50,112 nucleotides of DNA. Source: a virus. The translations under genes and the position numbers were made by a program. Of the stretch, positions 32,595-40,580 are shown piece by piece. The notes beneath the pieces were generated by a model. It saw only the letters and a program-made list of their open reading frames with translations, did no database searches and was not told where the DNA came from. How positions within the stretch are numbered: the stretch's first letter is position 1; each line of letters begins with the position of its first letter. The stretch is from IMG/VR virus record IMGVR_UViG_3300009597_000019, positions 1 to 50,112 of that record; one strand, 5' to 3'.

Positions 32595-35111
32595 GTGGAA
32601 GGGCCGCAACTAGAGTTTTCGGACACGCTGCACGCTGAGAAGTACCGACACGGTGGGGAGACATTCAAGGAGGCAATGAACCGGGTCGCTTCGGCGCTCA
32701 AAGACAACGACGAGCATTACTTCAAGACACGCGACATCCTTCTCGGGATGCGCTTCTTGCCAGGTGGTAGGATCCAGTCAGCGATTGGGTCCTCCAAGCG
32801 AACGACGCCGTACAACTGCTTCGTCAGTGGAACCATCGAGGACTCCTTCGTCGATGGCCACGGCTCTATCATGGAGCGTGCGAAGGAAGCGGCGATTACG
32901 ATGAGGATGGGAGGTGGAATCGGTTACGACTTCAGCACGCTCCGCCCACGCGGCGCTCTGATCCGCAAGCTGAGTTCCAAGTCCTCTGGTCCGATATCCT
33001 TCATGGATATTTTCGACGCTATCTGCCGTTGCGTCGCCTCCTCTGGGCACCGGCGCGGAGCCCAGATGGGTGTTCTCCGCGTTGATCACCCAGATATCGA
33101 GGAATTCGTCCACGCGAAGCAAAATGGGACGCGCCTTACGGGATTCAATATCTCGATCGCCGTGACTGACGGCTTCATGCAGTGCGTCGAGAGTGGCACC
33201 CCGTTCATGCTGAAGTTTGCTGGAGAGAACTACCGCGAGATTGATGCTCGCGCTCTCTGGGAACAAATCATGCGCTCGACTTGGGACTGGGCGGAACCTG
33301 GCGTCCTATTCATCGACGCGATCAACCGCATGAATAACCTGTACTATTGCGAACAGATCGCTGCGACGAATCCCTGTTTCACTGGTGATACTCATGTATG
33401 GACAGCAGAGTATGGACCTGTCCAGTTCTCGACTCTCGCTGAGGCTAACCCGGAAAGTGTCCTCGTCCTAACACAGCTTCCTGATGGTAAACTTGTCTAT
33501 CGAAAAATGGCTAACATTCGTCGGACTGCGACCAAAGCAAAGTTAGTTAGGATTAAGCTTGATAATGGTGGCGAGATTCGTTGTACTCCTAATCACGTTT
33601 TCTATATGCGTGATGGTAGTGAGTGCAAAGCAAAGGATCTACAGCCTAAGGATTCTTTGGCATCCGTCTATAGGCATAAGGCCAATTCGAAAGGGTACTT
33701 AAACCTTTTGAACGGAATTGTTCACCCACTTGAACATCATGTCCCGTTTGAAGGAATTAAGGGTCTTGGATCTAAAGTCCATACCCATCATATCAACGGC
33801 AAGAAAGGCGATAACAGGCCTTCGAATCTAGAGGTCATCGACTCTACTGAGCACCAGCGTCTTCATATGTCTGGTGACTCTAATCCTTTAAGAAGGATGC
33901 CGGGCAGAAACCCAATGAAGCTTTTCCCAGATTGCACACGAGGGCCAAAGAATGGCCGTTGGAGAGATGAAGTCTCCACGGAAAAAATTCTTGAGCTTCG
34001 TGGGTCTGGTCTTAGCTTCAACAAAATTGCGAAGCAAGTTGGTTGCTCGAAGTACACGGTTCAGCATCGGATCAAGACGGCTAACCATAAGGTCATCTCT
34101 GTCGAATTCCTCGAAGAAGTAGAAGATGTCTTTTGTGGAACTGTCGAAGAAACTAATCGTTTCTTCATCCAAACCGGCAAGAACGACGGCGTCCTCGTAC
34201 ATAACTGCGGGGAGCAACCTTTACCTCCTTATGGTGCTTGTCTACTTGGCTCCTTTAACCTCGCCAAATACGTTGATAAGAATGATAATAACGCGTTCCG
34301 CCTCGGCATGCTTGAGGAGGACATCCCGCATGTTGTTCGCGCGATGGATAATGTCGTAGACCGCGCTGTCTATCCGCTCTATGAGCAGGAGAAAGAAGCG
34401 CGGAGTAAGCGACGGATGGGTCTGGGCGTAACGGGTCTCGCGAATGCGTGTGAAGCACAGGGCCTTAAATATGGAACTCCTGAATTCATTAGCCTGACTG
34501 AAACCATCCTAAGAATAATCAAGGAAGGATGTTACCGAGCTTCCATCGACTTAGCAAAGGAGAAAGGTTCCTTCCCTAAGTATGAGGATGAGTATCTCGA
34601 TGGGCAGTTCATTCGAAGTCTCAGCGAAGAAACTCGTGCTGGAATTAAACGACACGGTATTCGCAACTCGCACTTGACGTCTATCGCCCCGACTGGCACG
34701 ATTAGCCTGTGCGCTGATAACGTCTCTAGCGGAATCGAACCTGTCTTTTCTCACAAGACAGAACGGACCGTCATCGAGTTCGAAGGACCTCGTAAAATCA
34801 CGGTCGAGGATTATGGCGTTAAGAACTTTGGCGTGTTCGGTAAGAAGGCGGCGGATGTAAGTATAGACGAGCATCTTGCCGTGCTCGTCGCTGCCTCTGA
34901 ACACGTAGACTCCTCCGTGTCGAAGACTTGCAACGTCCCAGCTTCCACAAAATGGGAAGATTTCAAGAATCTTTATTTCCAGGCTTGGAAGAATGGCTGT
35001 AAAGGTTGTACGACGTTTCAGATGGAAGGGAAACGCGCACCGATTTTGAAGGACGTTGAGCCTTCATCCTGCGCGTTCGATCCGGCTACTGGCCGTCGAG
35101 ACTGCAACTAA
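32595..35111 (+). CDS. nrdJ: Adenosylcobalamin-dependent (class II) ribonucleotide reductase with intein
   Basis: 838 residues encoded; about 561 after removal of the intein. Reductase features: PYNCFVSGT (Cys 75), MRMGGGIGYDFSTLRPRG, GHRRGAQMGVLRVDHPDIEEF, the active-site motif NPC-GE (split by the intein), KRRMGLGVTGLANA, SIAPTGTIS and a CKGCTTFQ end with a final Cys pair region. These fit the B12-dependent NrdJ type, which needs no oxygen and no second subunit. It supplies dNTP precursors; cobalamin must come from the host. Starts at GTG 32595 (taggagatctag before it). Class II rather than class I from the sequence pattern. Confidence 0.85.
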   Translation: MEGPQLEFSDTLHAEKYRHGGETFKEAMNRVASALKDNDEHYFKTRDILLGMRFLPGGRIQSAIGSSKRTTPYNCFVSGTIEDSFVDGHGSIMERAKEAAITMRMGGGIGYDFSTLRPRGALIRKLSSKSSGPISFMDIFDAICRCVASSGHRRGAQMGVLRVDHPDIEEFVHAKQNGTRLTGFNISIAVTDGFMQCVESGTPFMLKFAGENYREIDARALWEQIMRSTWDWAEPGVLFIDAINRMNNLYYCEQIAATNPCFTGDTHVWTAEYGPVQFSTLAEANPESVLVLTQLPDGKLVYRKMANIRRTATKAKLVRIKLDNGGEIRCTPNHVFYMRDGSECKAKDLQPKDSLASVYRHKANSKGYLNLLNGIVHPLEHHVPFEGIKGLGSKVHTHHINGKKGDNRPSNLEVIDSTEHQRLHMSGDSNPLRRMPGRNPMKLFPDCTRGPKNGRWRDEVSTEKILELRGSGLSFNKIAKQVGCSKYTVQHRIKTANHKVISVEFLEEVEDVFCGTVEETNRFFIQTGKNDGVLVHNCGEQPLPPYGACLLGSFNLAKYVDKNDNNAFRLGMLEEDIPHVVRAMDNVVDRAVYPLYEQEKEARSKRRMGLGVTGLANACEAQGLKYGTPEFISLTETILRIIKEGCYRASIDLAKEKGSFPKYEDEYLDGQFIRSLSEETRAGIKRHGIRNSHLTSIAPTGTISLCADNVSSGIEPVFSHKTERTVIEFEGPRKITVEDYGVKNFGVFGKKAADVSIDEHLAVLVAASEHVDSSVSKTCNVPASTKWEDFKNLYFQAWKNGCKGCTTFQMEGKRAPILKDVEPSSCAFDPATGRRDCN
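33375..34205 (+). mobile_element. Intein with HNH homing endonuclease in the reductase gene
   Basis: Residues 261-537 (277 aa). It starts CFTGDTHVWT (Cys1, block A), has IRCTPNHVFYMRDG (block B with TxxH), and ends GTVEETNRFFIQTG and VLVHN (blocks F, G) directly before Cys of the extein CGEQPL. So all splicing residues are present. Inside lie HTHHINGKKGDNRPSNLEVI (HNH) and a helix-turn-helix (LSFNKIAKQVGCSKYTVQHR) for DNA recognition. It splits the catalytic NPC|GE site, a known intein target. The sequence is more A/T-rich than the host gene. Confidence 0.92.
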
Positions 35112-35123
35112 GGGGGATTGGCG

Positions 35124-35891
35124 ATGGCGGGCAAGATCGACATTTCGGTTATAACCCTAGGCACAGAACCCGAGGAGGCTGGCCTATTCGAGATGTTGAA
35201 TCGGATTCCTAAATCTATTACGATCTCGACGATCGAAAGATCTTACACGACCTTCTCTCTTTCTCTTGCTAAAGCGTGCCAAGCTAGGGAAAGGCAGTGC
35301 CTCTTCTTTACTTCTGGCGGCCCAGAGTCACGGCACGCCGAAGCCGCGGCACACGGCGCGATCCCGATGTTGATTGAGCGCGCTAAGCTCAGTGAACAAG
35401 AAGCAATCGTCCGGTTCTTCATTAAGAAGAACGGCATCGGCGAGAGCCTGATTCTCTGGGACTGGAGCGACTGCCTAGAGATAACGAAGACGATCCGGGA
35501 GCGGCTTCTTACCCATCCTGACATGTTTGGGACATATGGTCATGTCCTGGTTCAAGACGACTCAGGGAGGGCGGTCTCTGCCCTTCTTTCGCTTATATTC
35601 AGGAATATGCCCTTTGCTTTCACTGTTTGTGCGTATCTAAGCCATAAGCCAACTTCCGGCTTCCTAGACCACTACCGCAAGAAGATCATAAAGGAAGCTG
35701 TAGATCTTGGCGTTCAGATCAGCGGCTCTAACTTGCATATTATTCATGATGACTATGTTCTGAACGAGATGTCAGAGCCAGGAGATGATCCACCTCATGG
35801 CTTGGATCTTGATCGCCGATACGGACTCAAAGCATATCGCTGGGCCGGTCGGAAGTTAACCGGCAAAGTTCTTCTGGTGGCCCAGAGATGA
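35124..35891 (+). CDS. Unassigned protein at the start of the DNA-modification cluster, faintly DUF218/YdcF-like
   Basis: 255 residues from ATG 35124 (agggggattggcg ahead). ISVITLGTEPEEAG, CLFFTSGGPESRHAEAAAHG (about 60-79), SLILWDWSDCLEITKTIRERLL and HVLVQDDSGRAVSALLSLIF (about 138-157) resemble the order GG-sEA, nT-N, HxxRA of Rossmann-like DUF218 proteins, but several residues differ. It overlaps the transferase gene by 4 nt. By location it may act in base modification, but this is an inference; the domain call is weak. Confidence 0.4.
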   Translation: MAGKIDISVITLGTEPEEAGLFEMLNRIPKSITISTIERSYTTFSLSLAKACQARERQCLFFTSGGPESRHAEAAAHGAIPMLIERAKLSEQEAIVRFFIKKNGIGESLILWDWSDCLEITKTIRERLLTHPDMFGTYGHVLVQDDSGRAVSALLSLIFRNMPFAFTVCAYLSHKPTSGFLDHYRKKIIKEAVDLGVQISGSNLHIIHDDYVLNEMSEPGDDPPHGLDLDRRYGLKAYRWAGRKLTGKVLLVAQR

Positions 35892-36973
35892 CCCTATCAC
35901 CTGGGCTCGACTTCCGGAAGAAGGAATACCGAAGAGAAACATTCCTTCGGTTCTATGAATTTCATCTTCGGTACAAGTCCCATCCCGGTGGTGTGTACTA
36001 TCTAATACCATTCCTTCGAGAGCGGTATAAGTGGGATGATGAGCAGACGCTCTTCTTCTGTTTCCTCAACGGTAACACGCAGAACCCAGTTACAAGTTGG
36101 CTCCTCTTCAATGCAGGCAAGGATGATCTTGGATCGTTGAAGAAGTTCTACGAGGAGAACTATGGCCGTCTTCAGTACGACACCGATCGACGGCACCATA
36201 AACCTTTCCTTATGGAGTCTTTGGCGTCGTATTATAATCTCCTTGGAGATTATAGTCAGAAGAAGTTCTTGGACCAAATTGCAGATGGTGGTTTCTCCGC
36301 CATCTGGGACGCGGCGACTTCTGTCTACACCTTTGGCCGACTCTCAGCCTTCTCATACAGCGAATACCTTAAAATCGCTGGTGTCAAATTCGACTGCGAC
36401 ACACTCTTCCTTCACGATATGAGCGGTAGTAAGTCGCACAGGAACGGTCTCTGCATCGTTACTGGGAGAGATGAGTATGACTGGCACCATTCAAATCCAA
36501 TGTTCGGAGGCGATTATCCGCCGGGTCTGGTGGAGACACTTATCCAAGAGGCAGATGAAATACTGGCTGAGGTACATGAGCGAGGTGCTATGGGTAGTAA
36601 GGATGCGAACCTCTTCACCCTTGAGAGCGCTCTATGCACGTACAAAAGCTGGCATCGGCCGAATCGTAGGTATCCAAACGTCTACAACGACCTCATGCAC
36701 GATCGTATTTGTGCTGCCGAGTATTCATGGCCCGAGATAGACTTCTCGGTGTTCTGGGAGGCTCGGACAAAGTATCTTCCCTCTTATCTAAGGTTGGAAG
36801 ATACTCTGTCCGATCCTGGCTGTGTCCCCGTCAAGCAGAACCACTACCTACGCACGGGTCAGCCGATTATGATGGATATAGAGCACGAGTGCTTCAAGAA
36901 TAGCTTTAACGATGGCGTTAGGAACGCGGATGGGGAGCCTTCTCGCCTCCGCAAATTCTGGAGAAGGAAATGA
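35888..36973 (+). CDS. Putative amino acid:DNA transferase (thymine hypermodification)
   Basis: 361 residues. The start YEFHLRYKSHPGGVYYLIPF, followed by WDDEQTLFFCFLNGNTQNPVTSWLLF, matches the helical amino acid:DNA transferase (ADDT) group of thymine-hypermodifying phages, predicted to attach an amino acid to the activated base in DNA. SYSEYLKIAGV, FLHDMSGSKSHRNGLCIVTGRD and LFTLESALCTYKSWHRPNRRYPNVYNDL are further conserved-looking blocks. Neighbours include the DNA kinase and hydroxymethylase-like genes, which strongly supports the call. Overlaps both neighbours by 4 nt. Acceptor amino acid unknown. Confidence moderate for the family. Confidence 0.65.
   Translation: MTLSPGLDFRKKEYRRETFLRFYEFHLRYKSHPGGVYYLIPFLRERYKWDDEQTLFFCFLNGNTQNPVTSWLLFNAGKDDLGSLKKFYEENYGRLQYDTDRRHHKPFLMESLASYYNLLGDYSQKKFLDQIADGGFSAIWDAATSVYTFGRLSAFSYSEYLKIAGVKFDCDTLFLHDMSGSKSHRNGLCIVTGRDEYDWHHSNPMFGGDYPPGLVETLIQEADEILAEVHERGAMGSKDANLFTLESALCTYKSWHRPNRRYPNVYNDLMHDRICAAEYSWPEIDFSVFWEARTKYLPSYLRLEDTLSDPGCVPVKQNHYLRTGQPIMMDIEHECFKNSFNDGVRNADGEPSRLRKFWRRK
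36233..36254. repeat. Perfect 10-bp inverted repeat with 2-nt centre
   Basis: Arms 36233-36242 (tataatctcc) and 36245-36254 in the transferase gene. Confidence 0.75.
36764..36812. repeat. 17-bp inverted repeat with one mismatch
   Basis: Inner arms 36771-36780 (agtatcttcc) and 36796-36805 are exact; after one A-C mismatch the outer cggaca / tgtccg pair. Loop 15 nt. In the transferase gene. Confidence 0.75.
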
Positions 36974-37260
36974 CGGATCAGCAGGAGCAGCAGCCGGACA
37001 AGATTGAAGAACTTGATTGTGGCTGTAAGAACCACTACTACGGCGAAAAGAAGGCTACTGCCCCATGTAAGGGCTGCGCCACTCTCACAATTGGTAATCA
37101 TCTCATGACGATTGCTAATTCTCTTGCTGGCATTGCTTCTGTCCTGATCGCTGCTGGGACGAAGGACTCTGTTGATCGAGCGAATTCTAAGAAAGCGTCT
37201 GAGCAGAGAGAATTCGAAGCGATCAGGAATAAGATCGCTCCGACTCTGAGGAAAGTGTGA
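36970..37260 (+). CDS. Small zinc-binding-like protein in the modification cluster
   Basis: 96 residues. LDCGCKNHYYG and TAPCKGCATLTIGNHL give four Cys near 15-37, a probable zinc site; then a mildly hydrophobic helix (ANSLAGIASVLIAAGTKD) and a charged tail. It overlaps the transferase by 4 nt and the kinase start by 1 nt, so it is translated with them. No family recognised. Confidence 0.55.
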   Translation: MTDQQEQQPDKIEELDCGCKNHYYGEKKATAPCKGCATLTIGNHLMTIANSLAGIASVLIAAGTKDSVDRANSKKASEQREFEAIRNKIAPTLRKV

Positions 37261-37841
37261 TGTTCGTTAATATTCGCGGCACCAACGGCTCAGGAAAGAC
37301 GACTCTTGCTCGAAAGTTTCTCGAGCAAGCGGTTAGGGTGCTGGACCTAGGACCGCTTATCTGCCCTTTAAGTGGGAAGTCGGTTATCATCCCAGGGCAC
37401 GTGACTGGGGATGGGATCTGTGTGATTGGCAGCTATAAGATGATGTCCGGTGGTCTTGATTCAATCAAGAGCACCGACACCCAAAGGGACGCCATCCGTC
37501 TTGCAGTCAAAACAGATGGCGTTAAGCACGTCCTCGCGGAAGGAGCTCTTGCCTCCGGTCTTTTCTCCTCGTGGTACGAATTCGCTGCTGAATTCCCAAC
37601 CACCTGGGCTTACCTCGAAATTTCTCCCGAAGAGTGTGTCAAAAGGATCTACGCCAGGAACGGTGGCAAGGCCTTCCAAGAGAAGAATGTTCGTCACAAG
37701 CATGACGCCGTTCGCTCAACGAGGCGGAAGGCGATGCAGAGCCAACGAGTCAAGGTTCTAGATCTTCCAGCAGGTCAAGAGTATCAGACGCTCGTGAAGT
37801 ATCTCTGGGACTGTGAGATGGCGGTCAATGCTCTACCCTGA
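37260..37841 (+). CDS. P-loop kinase, probable 5-hydroxymethyl-dU DNA kinase
   Basis: 193 residues from ATG 37260 (overlaps the previous stop; a GTG at 37257 is also possible). FVNIRGTNGSGKTTLARKFL holds the Walker A loop (GTNGSGKT). Other blocks: VLAEGALASGLFSSWYEFA and TWAYLEISPEECVKRIYARNGG. This matches P-loop kinases that phosphorylate 5-hydroxymethyluracil in phage DNA, the activation step before replacement by an amine. Together with the following helical-domain gene it forms what is usually one protein. Specificity inferred from context. Confidence 0.68.
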   Translation: MFVNIRGTNGSGKTTLARKFLEQAVRVLDLGPLICPLSGKSVIIPGHVTGDGICVIGSYKMMSGGLDSIKSTDTQRDAIRLAVKTDGVKHVLAEGALASGLFSSWYEFAAEFPTTWAYLEISPEECVKRIYARNGGKAFQEKNVRHKHDAVRSTRRKAMQSQRVKVLDLPAGQEYQTLVKYLWDCEMAVNALP

Positions 37842-38772
37842 ACCGCTCTGGTACTGGATGACGGAGCGTGAGAAAATCCGTCAAAACCGAATGGCAGGAA
37901 TACGCCCTCCGTTTACGCAGGACGTTATCTTGCAGACCTTTAAGTTCTGCAATGTGTTCCGGGAGCATGATCGCGTTACGACTTGGATCCGTGAAAACAT
38001 TCGAGAGCCCTATGACAAGCATCCAAATTTGTTTGTGATGCTCGGCATGGCTAGAATCTACAACCTCCCAGAGACACTTCAAGCTCTCATTGACGGTGGA
38101 CCTGAGACGTGGCCGGTTATCTCGCGCGCTTTTGATTCTCGCGCCGTTACGAAACTGACGCAGGAGCGTAAGGATCAAGGTCGTAAGATCTATACGGGTG
38201 CCTACATGATTAGCGCACCGAGCAGCCCAAGTAACCTGTGGTTCGGCCAGTCGAAGCAGGCCTACATCGCAGAAGGAGTGGTTGGTGGCCTCTTCGCAAG
38301 GCGACGCGACTGCCCATTCCGTCATTCTAGCGACTCTCCGCTTCCACTTGAAGGTGCTTGGTCCTGGATGCGTACGAATAAGCTTCTTGGGTGGGGACCG
38401 TTCATGTCCTATGAGCTTGTTACGGACGCTCGATGGACCTCTCTCCTCCGTTGTTCGCCCGACATTGACTCCTGGGCTAATGCAGGTCCTGGAGCCATCA
38501 GAGGGCTCCGTCGGCTCCTACGAGAGGACGGCCGTCTACGGGGAGTACCCTCGCCCACGGTCTCTAGAGCCGAGGCTCTACCGCTTATGCAGAGGCTCCT
38601 AGAGGAGGCCCCCCGGAACCTTCCTAGGTGGTTCCCGCGCCTGGAAATGCGGGATATCCAGCATAGCCTCTGCGAAGTCGATAAGTACCTCAGAGTGAAG
38701 CATGGGGAGGGAAGACCGCGTTCTATGTTTCACGGAGCAGCGTGGTATGGAAAAGAATGGAGTAAGGCTTAG
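37828..38772 (+). CDS. 5-hmdU DNA kinase helical domain / thymine pyrophosphorylase-like protein
   Basis: 314 residues from ATG 37828 (GTG 37813 also in frame). YWMTEREKIRQNRMAGIRPP then FTQDVILQTFKFCNVFREHD and VTTWIRENIREPYD are the hallmark of the helical domain shared by 5-hmdU DNA kinases and alpha-glutamyl/putrescinyl-thymine pyrophosphorylases; WANAGPGAIRGLRRLL is the second conserved block. It overlaps the kinase by 14 nt in another frame, so kinase and helical domain are encoded separately. It may hold the kinase on DNA, or catalyse the displacement step. Good family confidence; exact reaction open. Confidence 0.72.
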   Translation: MLYPEPLWYWMTEREKIRQNRMAGIRPPFTQDVILQTFKFCNVFREHDRVTTWIRENIREPYDKHPNLFVMLGMARIYNLPETLQALIDGGPETWPVISRAFDSRAVTKLTQERKDQGRKIYTGAYMISAPSSPSNLWFGQSKQAYIAEGVVGGLFARRRDCPFRHSSDSPLPLEGAWSWMRTNKLLGWGPFMSYELVTDARWTSLLRCSPDIDSWANAGPGAIRGLRRLLREDGRLRGVPSPTVSRAEALPLMQRLLEEAPRNLPRWFPRLEMRDIQHSLCEVDKYLRVKHGEGRPRSMFHGAAWYGKEWSKA

Positions 38773-39010
38773 CGATTACGTTAAGCAGCAGTACCTTAAA
38801 GGCAAATTCCCGGCAGAAGGGGAATTTGTCGGAAATGTCAGAATTACGGCTCAAGATACTTACAAAAGAAAGTGTCTTCTAGTCGAAGTTGTTGACGAGA
38901 AAGGTAACCCCCTTTTGTCATTCGTTTCGAGATTACTAATGAACGGGGAGTACCTCCTGTTCCCTTCAGACTGGAAGTTCAGAATTCCGTTTAAACTCAC
39001 TACCACTTAG
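38747..39010 (+). CDS. Small protein of unknown function in the modification cluster
   Basis: 87 residues from ATG 38747, with ggagcagcgtgg before it (38702 is a worse start). YVKQQYLKGKFPAEGEFVGNVRITAQD, KRKCLLVEVVDEKGNPLLSF and YLLFPSDWKFRIPFKL suggest a small beta barrel. No family. Its last codons hold TTAAACTC, 13 nt before AGAACCC, resembling the -10 region of other elements. Confidence 0.5.
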   Translation: MEKNGVRLSDYVKQQYLKGKFPAEGEFVGNVRITAQDTYKRKCLLVEVVDEKGNPLLSFVSRLLMNGEYLLFPSDWKFRIPFKLTTT

Positions 39011-39019
39011 GAGAACCCA

Positions 39020-40069
39020 ATGTACGTCTTCCAAGGAAGGAATGCACAACAGATCCTTCCGCGTGTTGCCCAGCACATGAAGCTGTACGGCGTGGAACGC
39101 GAAAGCCGGAACGGGAAGGTGAAGGTCTTCCCGTATCCAGTCACAACGGTATACGAGCGGCCGCAAGAACGTGTTATCTTTTCGAAAAGCAGAAAAGCTA
39201 ACCCGTTCTTTCACTTCTTCGAAGCTCTCTGGATGCTGGATGGGCGTAAGGACGTATCCTGGATCGAGTTCTACAACTCGACCTTCGGCCAGTTCAGCGA
39301 CGATGGACTGACGTTCAACGGCGCTTATGGTGCTCGTTGGCGCAGCCATTTTGGTTATGACCAACTAGAACGTATCGCCAGCGCCCTAGCTGAGCATAAG
39401 GACGACCGTCGTCAAGTTCTCACAATGTGGGACGCTCGATTGGACCTGGGCCTTGCCAGCAAGGATGTGCCGTGCAATACGCACTGTTACTTCCAGGTTG
39501 GGACGTCTGGATCGTTGGACCTGTTCGTTTCAAATAGGTCCAATGACATGATCTGGGGAACCTATGGCTCAAACGTAGTTCACTTTTCAATGCTGCTGGA
39601 ATTCATGGCTGCGCGCATCGGCGTGCCGGTTGGAAAGTATTACCAGGTCTCGATGAACACGCACATCTACGAGCGGCACTTTTCGTTGCTGAATGACTTA
39701 CCTTCAGAGGTAGGTCTATTCGGCGATGAGAAAACCTGGAAGACTAGCAAGATTAAGGAGACGGATCCATACGTTGTGCGTCCTGGCGAAATCATTTCCA
39801 TGGTGAAGAATGGGGAGTCAGCTTCTGACTGGCGCAACGACCTCAGCCAGTTCATGAAGAACGAGCCTTCAATCTACGTGACTCGATTCTTTAATGAAGT
39901 TGCATCTCCTCTCAGAGCAGCCTGGGCTCTATTTAAGAAAAAGAGCGAGGACCGCTTCGATAGCGCTCTTGAAGCGCTAGGACGGTGCGCAGCGTCTGAT
40001 TGGGCTCTTGCGTGCAGGGACTTCATTCACGAAAGGAGAGCCAATGCTGTCACCAGAAAAGAAGGCTGA
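39020..40069 (+). CDS. Thymidylate synthase homologue, probable dUMP (or dCMP) hydroxymethylase
   Basis: 349 residues. The fold is that of thymidylate synthases: FNGAYGARWRSHFG, DDRRQVLTMWDARLDL, the catalytic Cys in DVPCNTHCYFQV (Cys 152), and FVSNRSNDMIWGTYGSNVVH then VGKYYQVSMNTHIYERH. The residue after the Cys is Asn, not the usual His, and the WG-YG-N version of the nucleotide loop is the one found in phage hydroxymethylases rather than cellular ThyA. With the kinase and transferase next to it, making 5-hydroxymethyl-dUMP is the best reading. A true ThyA cannot be excluded. Good start: taggagaacccaatg. Confidence 0.7.
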   Translation: MYVFQGRNAQQILPRVAQHMKLYGVERESRNGKVKVFPYPVTTVYERPQERVIFSKSRKANPFFHFFEALWMLDGRKDVSWIEFYNSTFGQFSDDGLTFNGAYGARWRSHFGYDQLERIASALAEHKDDRRQVLTMWDARLDLGLASKDVPCNTHCYFQVGTSGSLDLFVSNRSNDMIWGTYGSNVVHFSMLLEFMAARIGVPVGKYYQVSMNTHIYERHFSLLNDLPSEVGLFGDEKTWKTSKIKETDPYVVRPGEIISMVKNGESASDWRNDLSQFMKNEPSIYVTRFFNEVASPLRAAWALFKKKSEDRFDSALEALGRCAASDWALACRDFIHERRANAVTRKEG

Positions 40070-40580
40070 GAAGCTCCTCTTTCTAAGAGAAGCGGGTGCT
40101 GTGGAACGGTCACATGCGTGTCCGCATCACGGATCGTATAGCATCGCCCAGCACTCGTTCCAAATGGCAATGATCGTTCTAACGTATCACCCGTCACCTT
40201 CCTTAGCGGTGCTTGAAGCTGTGCTTCTTCACGATGTCCACGAGAGGGTGACGGGTGATATTCCGGCTCCAGCACGGTGGTCCTCTCCTGAGCTAAAGGA
40301 AGCAGAGCATGGTCTACGGGATCTCCTTCGGAAGAAGCACGAGATCATGCTTGAACTTCCTGCAGACGAGAAGGCTTGGCTTAACTCAGCCGACCGCCTC
40401 GAGCTATTCCTCTGGGCAAGGGACCAGCTAGCCTTTGGTAATCGCCATATTGAAGGAATCATCGAAGAGCTCAAAAGCTGGTTTCGTGAGAGCTGGTCTC
40501 GCGTCCCAGACGAATTGAAGCCAGTCGTAAAGTCCTTGACGGACATGACGACATGGAAGAGGGGGAGCGATCGACCGTGA
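40044..40580 (+). CDS. HD-domain 5'-deoxynucleotidase, YfbR-like
   Basis: 178 residues from ATG 40044 (ggagagcca upstream; overlaps the previous gene). HGSYSIAQHSFQMAMIVLTY supplies the first His, LEAVLLHDVHERVTGDIPAPAR is the HD motif with the family-specific E-TGDIP, and LNSADRLELFLWARD holds the last Asp. YfbR enzymes remove phosphate from dNMPs. In hypermodified phages such enzymes can destroy the normal dTMP or dCMP pool so that modified nucleotides prevail. Role here inferred. Confidence 0.85.
   Translation: MLSPEKKAEKLLFLREAGAVERSHACPHHGSYSIAQHSFQMAMIVLTYHPSPSLAVLEAVLLHDVHERVTGDIPAPARWSSPELKEAEHGLRDLLRKKHEIMLELPADEKAWLNSADRLELFLWARDQLAFGNRHIEGIIEELKSWFRESWSRVPDELKPVVKSLTDMTTWKRGSDRP

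Follow-up and report, generated by a model that had tools for sequence, protein, structure and literature searches.

Which modified thymine is made by the phage behind IMG/VR virus record IMGVR_UViG_3300009597_000019, and do the unassigned genes of its modification operon add a step to a known pathway or mark one that has gone? The locus begins at position 35,124 of a 50,112-nucleotide window (the whole stretch analysed), and its genes are named here by their start positions in that window. A preliminary description had read it as a thymine-hypermodification operon in which three unassigned genes, at 35124, 36970 and 38747, might form or tailor a new base. Hypermodified thymidines protect phage DNA from restriction, and the mixing of transferases and tailoring enzymes is believed to account for their variety. 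Judged by its protein families, the present cassette is a chimera in which one enzyme has been exchanged: the amino acid:DNA transferase (ADDT) is of the type found in Salmonella phage ViI and in actinophages, while the kinase, the helical protein, the ThyA-family enzyme and the HD protein are of the type found in Pseudomonas phage M6. Upstream of the transferase stands 35124, most probably a highly diverged homologue of the fold-type-II pyridoxal 5'-phosphate (PLP) enzyme that such cassettes carry (M6 gp52); it seems to have lost its catalytic chemistry. The genes are as follows.

35124..35891, plus strand: probable diverged homologue of fold-type-II PLP enzymes (M6 gp52 / Pam3_43 family), 255 amino acids; M6-clade profile, AlphaFold, Foldseek
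35888..36973, plus strand: ADDT (aGPT-PPlase2), ViI/actinophage type; Pfam PF18724
36970..37260, plus strand: orphan protein of 96 amino acids; relatives in sister contigs alone
37260..37841, plus strand: P-loop 5-hydroxymethyldeoxyuridine (5-hmdU) DNA kinase, M6 type; Pfam PF18748
37828..38772, plus strand: HMUDK_hel / aGPT-PPlase1 helical protein, M6 type; Pfam PF18723
38747..39010, plus strand: orphan protein of 87 amino acids; relatives in sister contigs alone
39020..40069, plus strand: ThyA-family enzyme with a PCN motif, putative deoxyuridine monophosphate (dUMP) hydroxymethylase; Pfam PF00303, PHROG 5131
40044..40580, plus strand: YfbR-like HD 5'-nucleotidase; Pfam PF13023/PF12917
43550..44002, plus strand: deoxycytidine monophosphate (dCMP) deaminase, which supplies dUMP; Pfam PF00383, PHROG 174

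The cassette genes all lie on one strand, and neighbours overlap or abut: ATGA overlaps join 35124 to 35888 and 35888 to 36970, and the frame of 36970 ends at 37260, the first base of the kinase gene. Families and motifs together describe a 5-hmdU-derived hypermodification cassette, with a 5-hmdU-making ThyA-family enzyme, a kinase plus HMUDK_hel, and an ADDT, and every gene named in the preliminary description was recovered in place by reading frames and Pfam. The two profile matches on which that description had staked its reading both lie well above the cut-off, PF18724 for 35888 at 53.7 bits (cut-off 26.2; 3e-14) and PF18723 for 37828 at 167.7 bits (cut-off 25; 4.5e-49). Its aGPT-PPlase assignment also stands, 37828 belonging to the family named aGPT-PPlase1 in M6-like phages and 35888 to aGPT-PPlase2. 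The kinase 37260 matches PF18748 (HMUDK_HMUD1) at 49.6 bits (cut-off 27; 4e-13), 39020 matches PHROG 5131 at 7e-114 within the thymidylate synthase family, 40044 is a homologue of M6 gp59, and 43550 matches PHROG 174 at 2e-39; the PHROGs assignments of the cassette genes are consistent with Pfam. Near-invariant columns are kept at 96-100% (60/61 in the ADDT, 8/8 in the kinase, 19/19 in the helical protein, 49/51 in ThyA and 12/12 in the HD protein).

The asparagine noted earlier after the catalytic cysteine of 39020 is real, and the P-C-N motif, which M6 shares, is invariant in all 29 related phage proteins. Equally invariant (29/29) is an asparagine at the dUMP/dCMP-selecting position, which presumably selects dUMP over dCMP and thereby favours a pathway that leads to modified thymine, not cytosine. 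The kinase also matches PHROG 800, whose annotation reads "terminase small subunit", a name that M6 gp54 (L009:16686-17249) shares; on 5-hmdU kinases this label is an annotation error that probably hides such cassettes.

The transferase is where the cassette parts from M6. A tblastn search with 35888 found mycobacteriophages at 44%, Glutamicibacter phage Montesquieu at 41% and Ackermannviridae, whose ADDT belongs to the same broad clade, at 25-29% identity, and metagenomic viral relatives reach 58%. With phmmer, ViI was matched at 1e-20 and M6 gave no match. In the ADDT tree, M6 and Pseudanabaena phage Pam3 split from all others at 100/100, with ViI and M6/Pam3 on long branches. The window ADDT sits in the other clade, and a profile search of the window found no ADDT of the M6 type (gp51 type). 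By tblastn, tree and phmmer, 35888 is thus a ViI-type ADDT, with a putative substrate assigned by analogy. The nearest relatives of the kinase, helical protein, ThyA-family enzyme and HD protein, on the other hand, are all in M6-type loci, 37828 being about 45% identical to the Sonora/YuA proteins. The sole match to the window-type transferase in a bacterial genome (57% identity) is in an Actinomycetota metagenome-assembled genome (RGDC01000007.1, locus L129), where PLP and kinase genes adjoin it; the locus is probably phage sequence in the bin.

The comparison with known systems follows the same lines. The early-gene order (helicase, Dda-like helicase, ribonucleotide reductase, modification cassette, DNA polymerase, dCMP deaminase, primase) is that of M6, and the kinase, helical protein, ThyA-family enzyme, HD protein and dCMP deaminase are shared with the Pseudomonas phages M6, YuA and SN1. 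However, M6 combines an ADDT of a type of its own (gp51) with an intact PLP enzyme (gp52), a radical S-adenosylmethionine (SAM) enzyme (gp53) and Nmad5 (gp56), whereas the window has a foreign ADDT, no radical-SAM isomerase, no Nmad5 and, in place of a functional PLP decarboxylase, a sole homologue, the lysine-less 35124 with its Glu17. Pam3 has an M6-type layout, and its PALP-family PLP enzyme is the first annotated match of 35124, but its PLP enzyme, radical SAM and Nmad5 are all intact and its ADDT is M6-type. ViI, which resembles the window in its ADDT, carries an intact PLP gene far from that ADDT (L010) in a different genome, and the other window enzymes are not ViI-like. The closest ADDTs (40-58% identity) are in actinophage-type cassettes (Montesquieu, mycobacteriophage Prince, Rhodococcus phage Tonitrus) and metagenomic relatives, but these cassettes usually read ADDT-PLP-kinase, the PLP enzyme being intact. 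Many of them make 5-hmdU with a TET/JBP-like oxygenase rather than a ThyA-family enzyme (PMC11955845 and the loci compared). The cassette of the M6-like phage SN1 comprises a pyrimidine hydroxymethylase, Nmad5, aGPT-PPlase1, kinase, radical SAM, PLP enzyme and aGPT-PPlase2 (PMC9476957). In M6, ViI and phiW-14, 5-hmdU is incorporated in DNA, phosphorylated by the 5-hmdU DNA kinase and modified further, the M6 base being 5-(2-aminoethyl)deoxyuridine (PMC6449724).

The tailoring genes that normally accompany either type of transferase were not recognised here. Of 41 loci that have a window-type ADDT and 2.5 kb of context on either side, 37 contained an intact PLP gene. M6-type PLP genes with full context had a radical-SAM gene alongside in 30 of 35 loci, 28 of which had the M6-type ADDT too, and none of the 35 combined such a PLP gene with a window-type ADDT. 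Profile searches of the window found no intact PLP enzyme, no flavin adenine dinucleotide (FAD) lyase of the Sonora kind and no Nmad5. Radical SAM (PF04055) was absent from both the window and the 56-kb sister contig G001, with positive controls matching, and a radical-SAM profile had no match in the window. A PLP search of G001 was empty, although it was run without a positive control and is weak. From position 1 to about 41.4 kb the window is shared by G001 at 100% identity (rounded). G001 continues for another 14.6 kb, and its far end resembles the end of the window, so window and contig together probably represent almost the whole of a genome of about 64 kb. Portal, terminase and other genes lie in the additional 14.6 kb, and no tailoring enzyme was recognised among them. 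The idea that PLP absence is a clade trait within the ADDT tree was rejected, as PLP-less loci are scattered.

Two observations on other loci concern tailoring more generally. At L022:2562-4395 and L024:7143-8976, a tandem pair of M6-type PLP genes stands beside a radical-SAM gene, with the lysine kept in both copies and the first copy diverged, possibly for a second tailoring step. Proteins of 185-250 amino acids adjoin the window-type ADDT at six loci, mostly PLP-less (L086:5978-6718, L091:1577-2371, L110:203-997, L117:1921-2715, L120:9053-9814 and L106:7156-7956). Some have a glycine motif like that of Rossmann methyltransferases (F/E-GG-x-G), with a weak Pfam methyltransferase match in L106 only, and they are candidate alternative tailoring enzymes.

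What, then, is 35124? It has no match in Pfam or PHROGs, a sequence search of the PDB gave nothing meaningful, and a profile built from five PLP enzymes did not find it. In a single BLASTP comparison it matched the Pam3 PLP enzyme at 2e-5. Against a profile of 60 M6-clade PLP enzymes it came top of all open reading frames (ORFs) of the window (E 2.5e-4), in a collinear match over profile positions 39-257 of 272. It also ranked first among 4237 ORFs not already recognised as PLP enzymes (E 2.3e-3, the next unrelated one at 0.12). A combined profile that included ViI-type enzymes did not recognise it (0.2 bits), and recognition by the M6-clade profile alone indicates the M6 clade as its branch of origin. 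An AlphaFold model built with an alignment of 45 clade relatives reached a predicted local distance difference test score (pLDDT) of 83.7, and the best 50 PDB matches listed for it by Foldseek were fold-type-II PLP enzymes and close kin; the single-sequence model (pLDDT 36) was uninformative. Two other leads were discarded: a match of 35124 to cinA (E 0.04, 12.7 bits against a cut-off of 243) was noise, and a PLP match at ORF 36670 (to 5e-20), obtained by iterative profile search on stop-to-stop frames, was caused by out-of-frame shadows of the ADDT gene.

The weak scores, the empty family and five-sequence searches, the uninformative single-sequence model and the existence of PLP-less relatives would all suit an unrelated orphan in a cassette that is simply PLP-less, as in cluster-B-like mycobacteriophages such as Prince. 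We consider this decidedly unlikely, given the first rank of 35124 in the window and among the 4237 ORFs, the collinearity over most of its length, the confident PLP-fold model and its position beside the ADDT, as for PLP genes elsewhere. Descent from the PLP enzyme and loss of its lysine are well supported, yet on a weak sequence signal.

The lysine that binds PLP as a Schiff base is invariant in all 60 M6-clade relatives, and in 59/59 of the combined set including ViI-type enzymes, but the aligned residue of 35124 is Glu17. The VKRED, DTxHS and SSGT motifs are all altered as well, and only 7 of 36 near-invariant columns are kept, where family members keep at least 74%. The gene looks maintained rather than decaying, since its frame of 255 codons is open, with little variation, in the three sister assemblies that carry it, and a strong ribosome-binding site (AAGGGGG) lies upstream. 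It is also translationally coupled to the ADDT gene. This maintenance and coupling, together with the retained C-terminal Y-x-LKA-x-RW motif, could mean that 35124 retains its activity or has taken on a new one, through a different residue or a different reaction on the DNA-bound amino acid, which would yield a base not yet described. That seems unlikely with all PLP-binding motifs altered, and no new conserved active site is visible, because the collections searched hold no intermediate relatives. Instead, 35124 may be retained as a structural or regulatory partner.

Of the earlier suggestion that three genes form or tailor a new base, 35124 thus proved assignable, but as a dead-looking relative of an enzyme already usual in such cassettes, which makes it a pointer to a missing step and not to an extra one. 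The other two found no such role: family searches (Pfam, PHROGs) and searches for relatives of 36970 and 38747 gave sister contigs of the same phage alone. Both are inside the operon, but nothing ties either to base chemistry. 36970 has four cysteines near its N-terminus and sits between ADDT and kinase, the place of the PLP gene in most relatives; it did not align with the small ADDT-adjoining protein of Pam3. 38747 stands at the position of Nmad5 in M6 and Pam3, but a comparison gave no support for an Nmad5 remnant. In a sister contig (L005, 3300012039_000025), a more diverged allele runs from the end of 37828, which there stops nine residues early, through 38747 into the ThyA gene, and looks like a recombination block. 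Upstream of the cassette, an intein of 277 amino acids (33375-34205, plus strand) with matches to an HNH endonuclease (PHROG 7545) and an HTH domain interrupts the large subunit of ribonucleotide reductase precisely at NP|CGEQ, a motif that is uninterrupted in M6.

The enzyme families support the pathway of the M6/ViI kind that had been proposed, from 5-hmdU through phospho-5-hmdU to an amino-acid adduct. The dCMP deaminase and the ThyA-family enzyme would make 5-hmdUMP, which would be polymerised into DNA, while the HD nucleotidase 40044 probably removes competing deoxythymidine monophosphate. The kinase, with the helical protein 37828, would then phosphorylate the hydroxymethyl group in DNA, and 35888 would swap the activated phosphate for an amino acid. 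The reported donor in ViI is serine, from which a PLP enzyme then removes CO2, and in M6 glycine, which is said to be isomerised and decarboxylated by radical-SAM and PLP enzymes (both attributed to Lee et al., 2021); we take M6 gp52 to be the decarboxylase. By analogy with ViI, the first guess for 35888 is serine. The absence of a radical-SAM isomerase and the turning of the PLP decarboxylase into the lysine-less 35124 suggest that no decarboxylation occurs and that the adduct would keep the whole amino acid with its carboxylate.

It is on balance somewhat probable, in our judgement, that this is an M6-type cassette whose transferase was replaced by the ViI/actinophage type, with the later tailoring lost and the amino acid, probably serine, kept whole. 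The fuller version is plausible but more tentative: a final base consisting of thymine with an un-decarboxylated amino acid, such as O-seryl-methyl-deoxyuridine, made by the swapped transferase, while what was once the decarboxylase survives as a partner protein free of PLP. To our knowledge, O-seryl-methyl-deoxyuridine has appeared only as a pathway intermediate. The final base could also be that of ViI and other Ackermannviridae, 5-(2-aminoethoxy)methyl-deoxyuridine, with decarboxylation by a host enzyme or an unrecognised phage gene. The ViI-type transferase and its almost constant association with a PLP enzyme would fit, but with no intact PLP gene in the window, and none found in the sister contig by the uncontrolled search, we rank this last among the alternatives; we know of no host enzyme that acts on DNA-bound amino acids.

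Several points weigh against a whole, un-decarboxylated amino acid. For 35124, homology is close to the limit of what can be detected, and the structural model depends on an alignment with relatives. Part of the genome may be missing, and the adduct could yet be tailored by enzymes of the host or by phage enzymes that escaped recognition. The low identity and very long branch of the ViI transferase mean that serine specificity may not carry over to 35888. The phage is uncultured and its pathway is known here from sequence alone: enzyme families, chimerism and the lack of recognisable tailoring genes are results at that level, and from them we infer all chemical steps, the serine donor and the non-decarboxylation.

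The kind of mechanism is already known, and what appears new, as far as the genes tell, is the exchanged transferase together with the lysine-less PLP homologue; a new base is possible by subtraction, that is, without decarboxylation. The locus would represent a natural exchange of a single enzyme within a pathway that is otherwise of the M6 type, accompanied by loss of the two tailoring steps that belonged to the old transferase. It makes a clear chemical prediction, that the carboxylate would be kept on the base, and offers a case of a PLP enzyme that apparently persists without its lysine.

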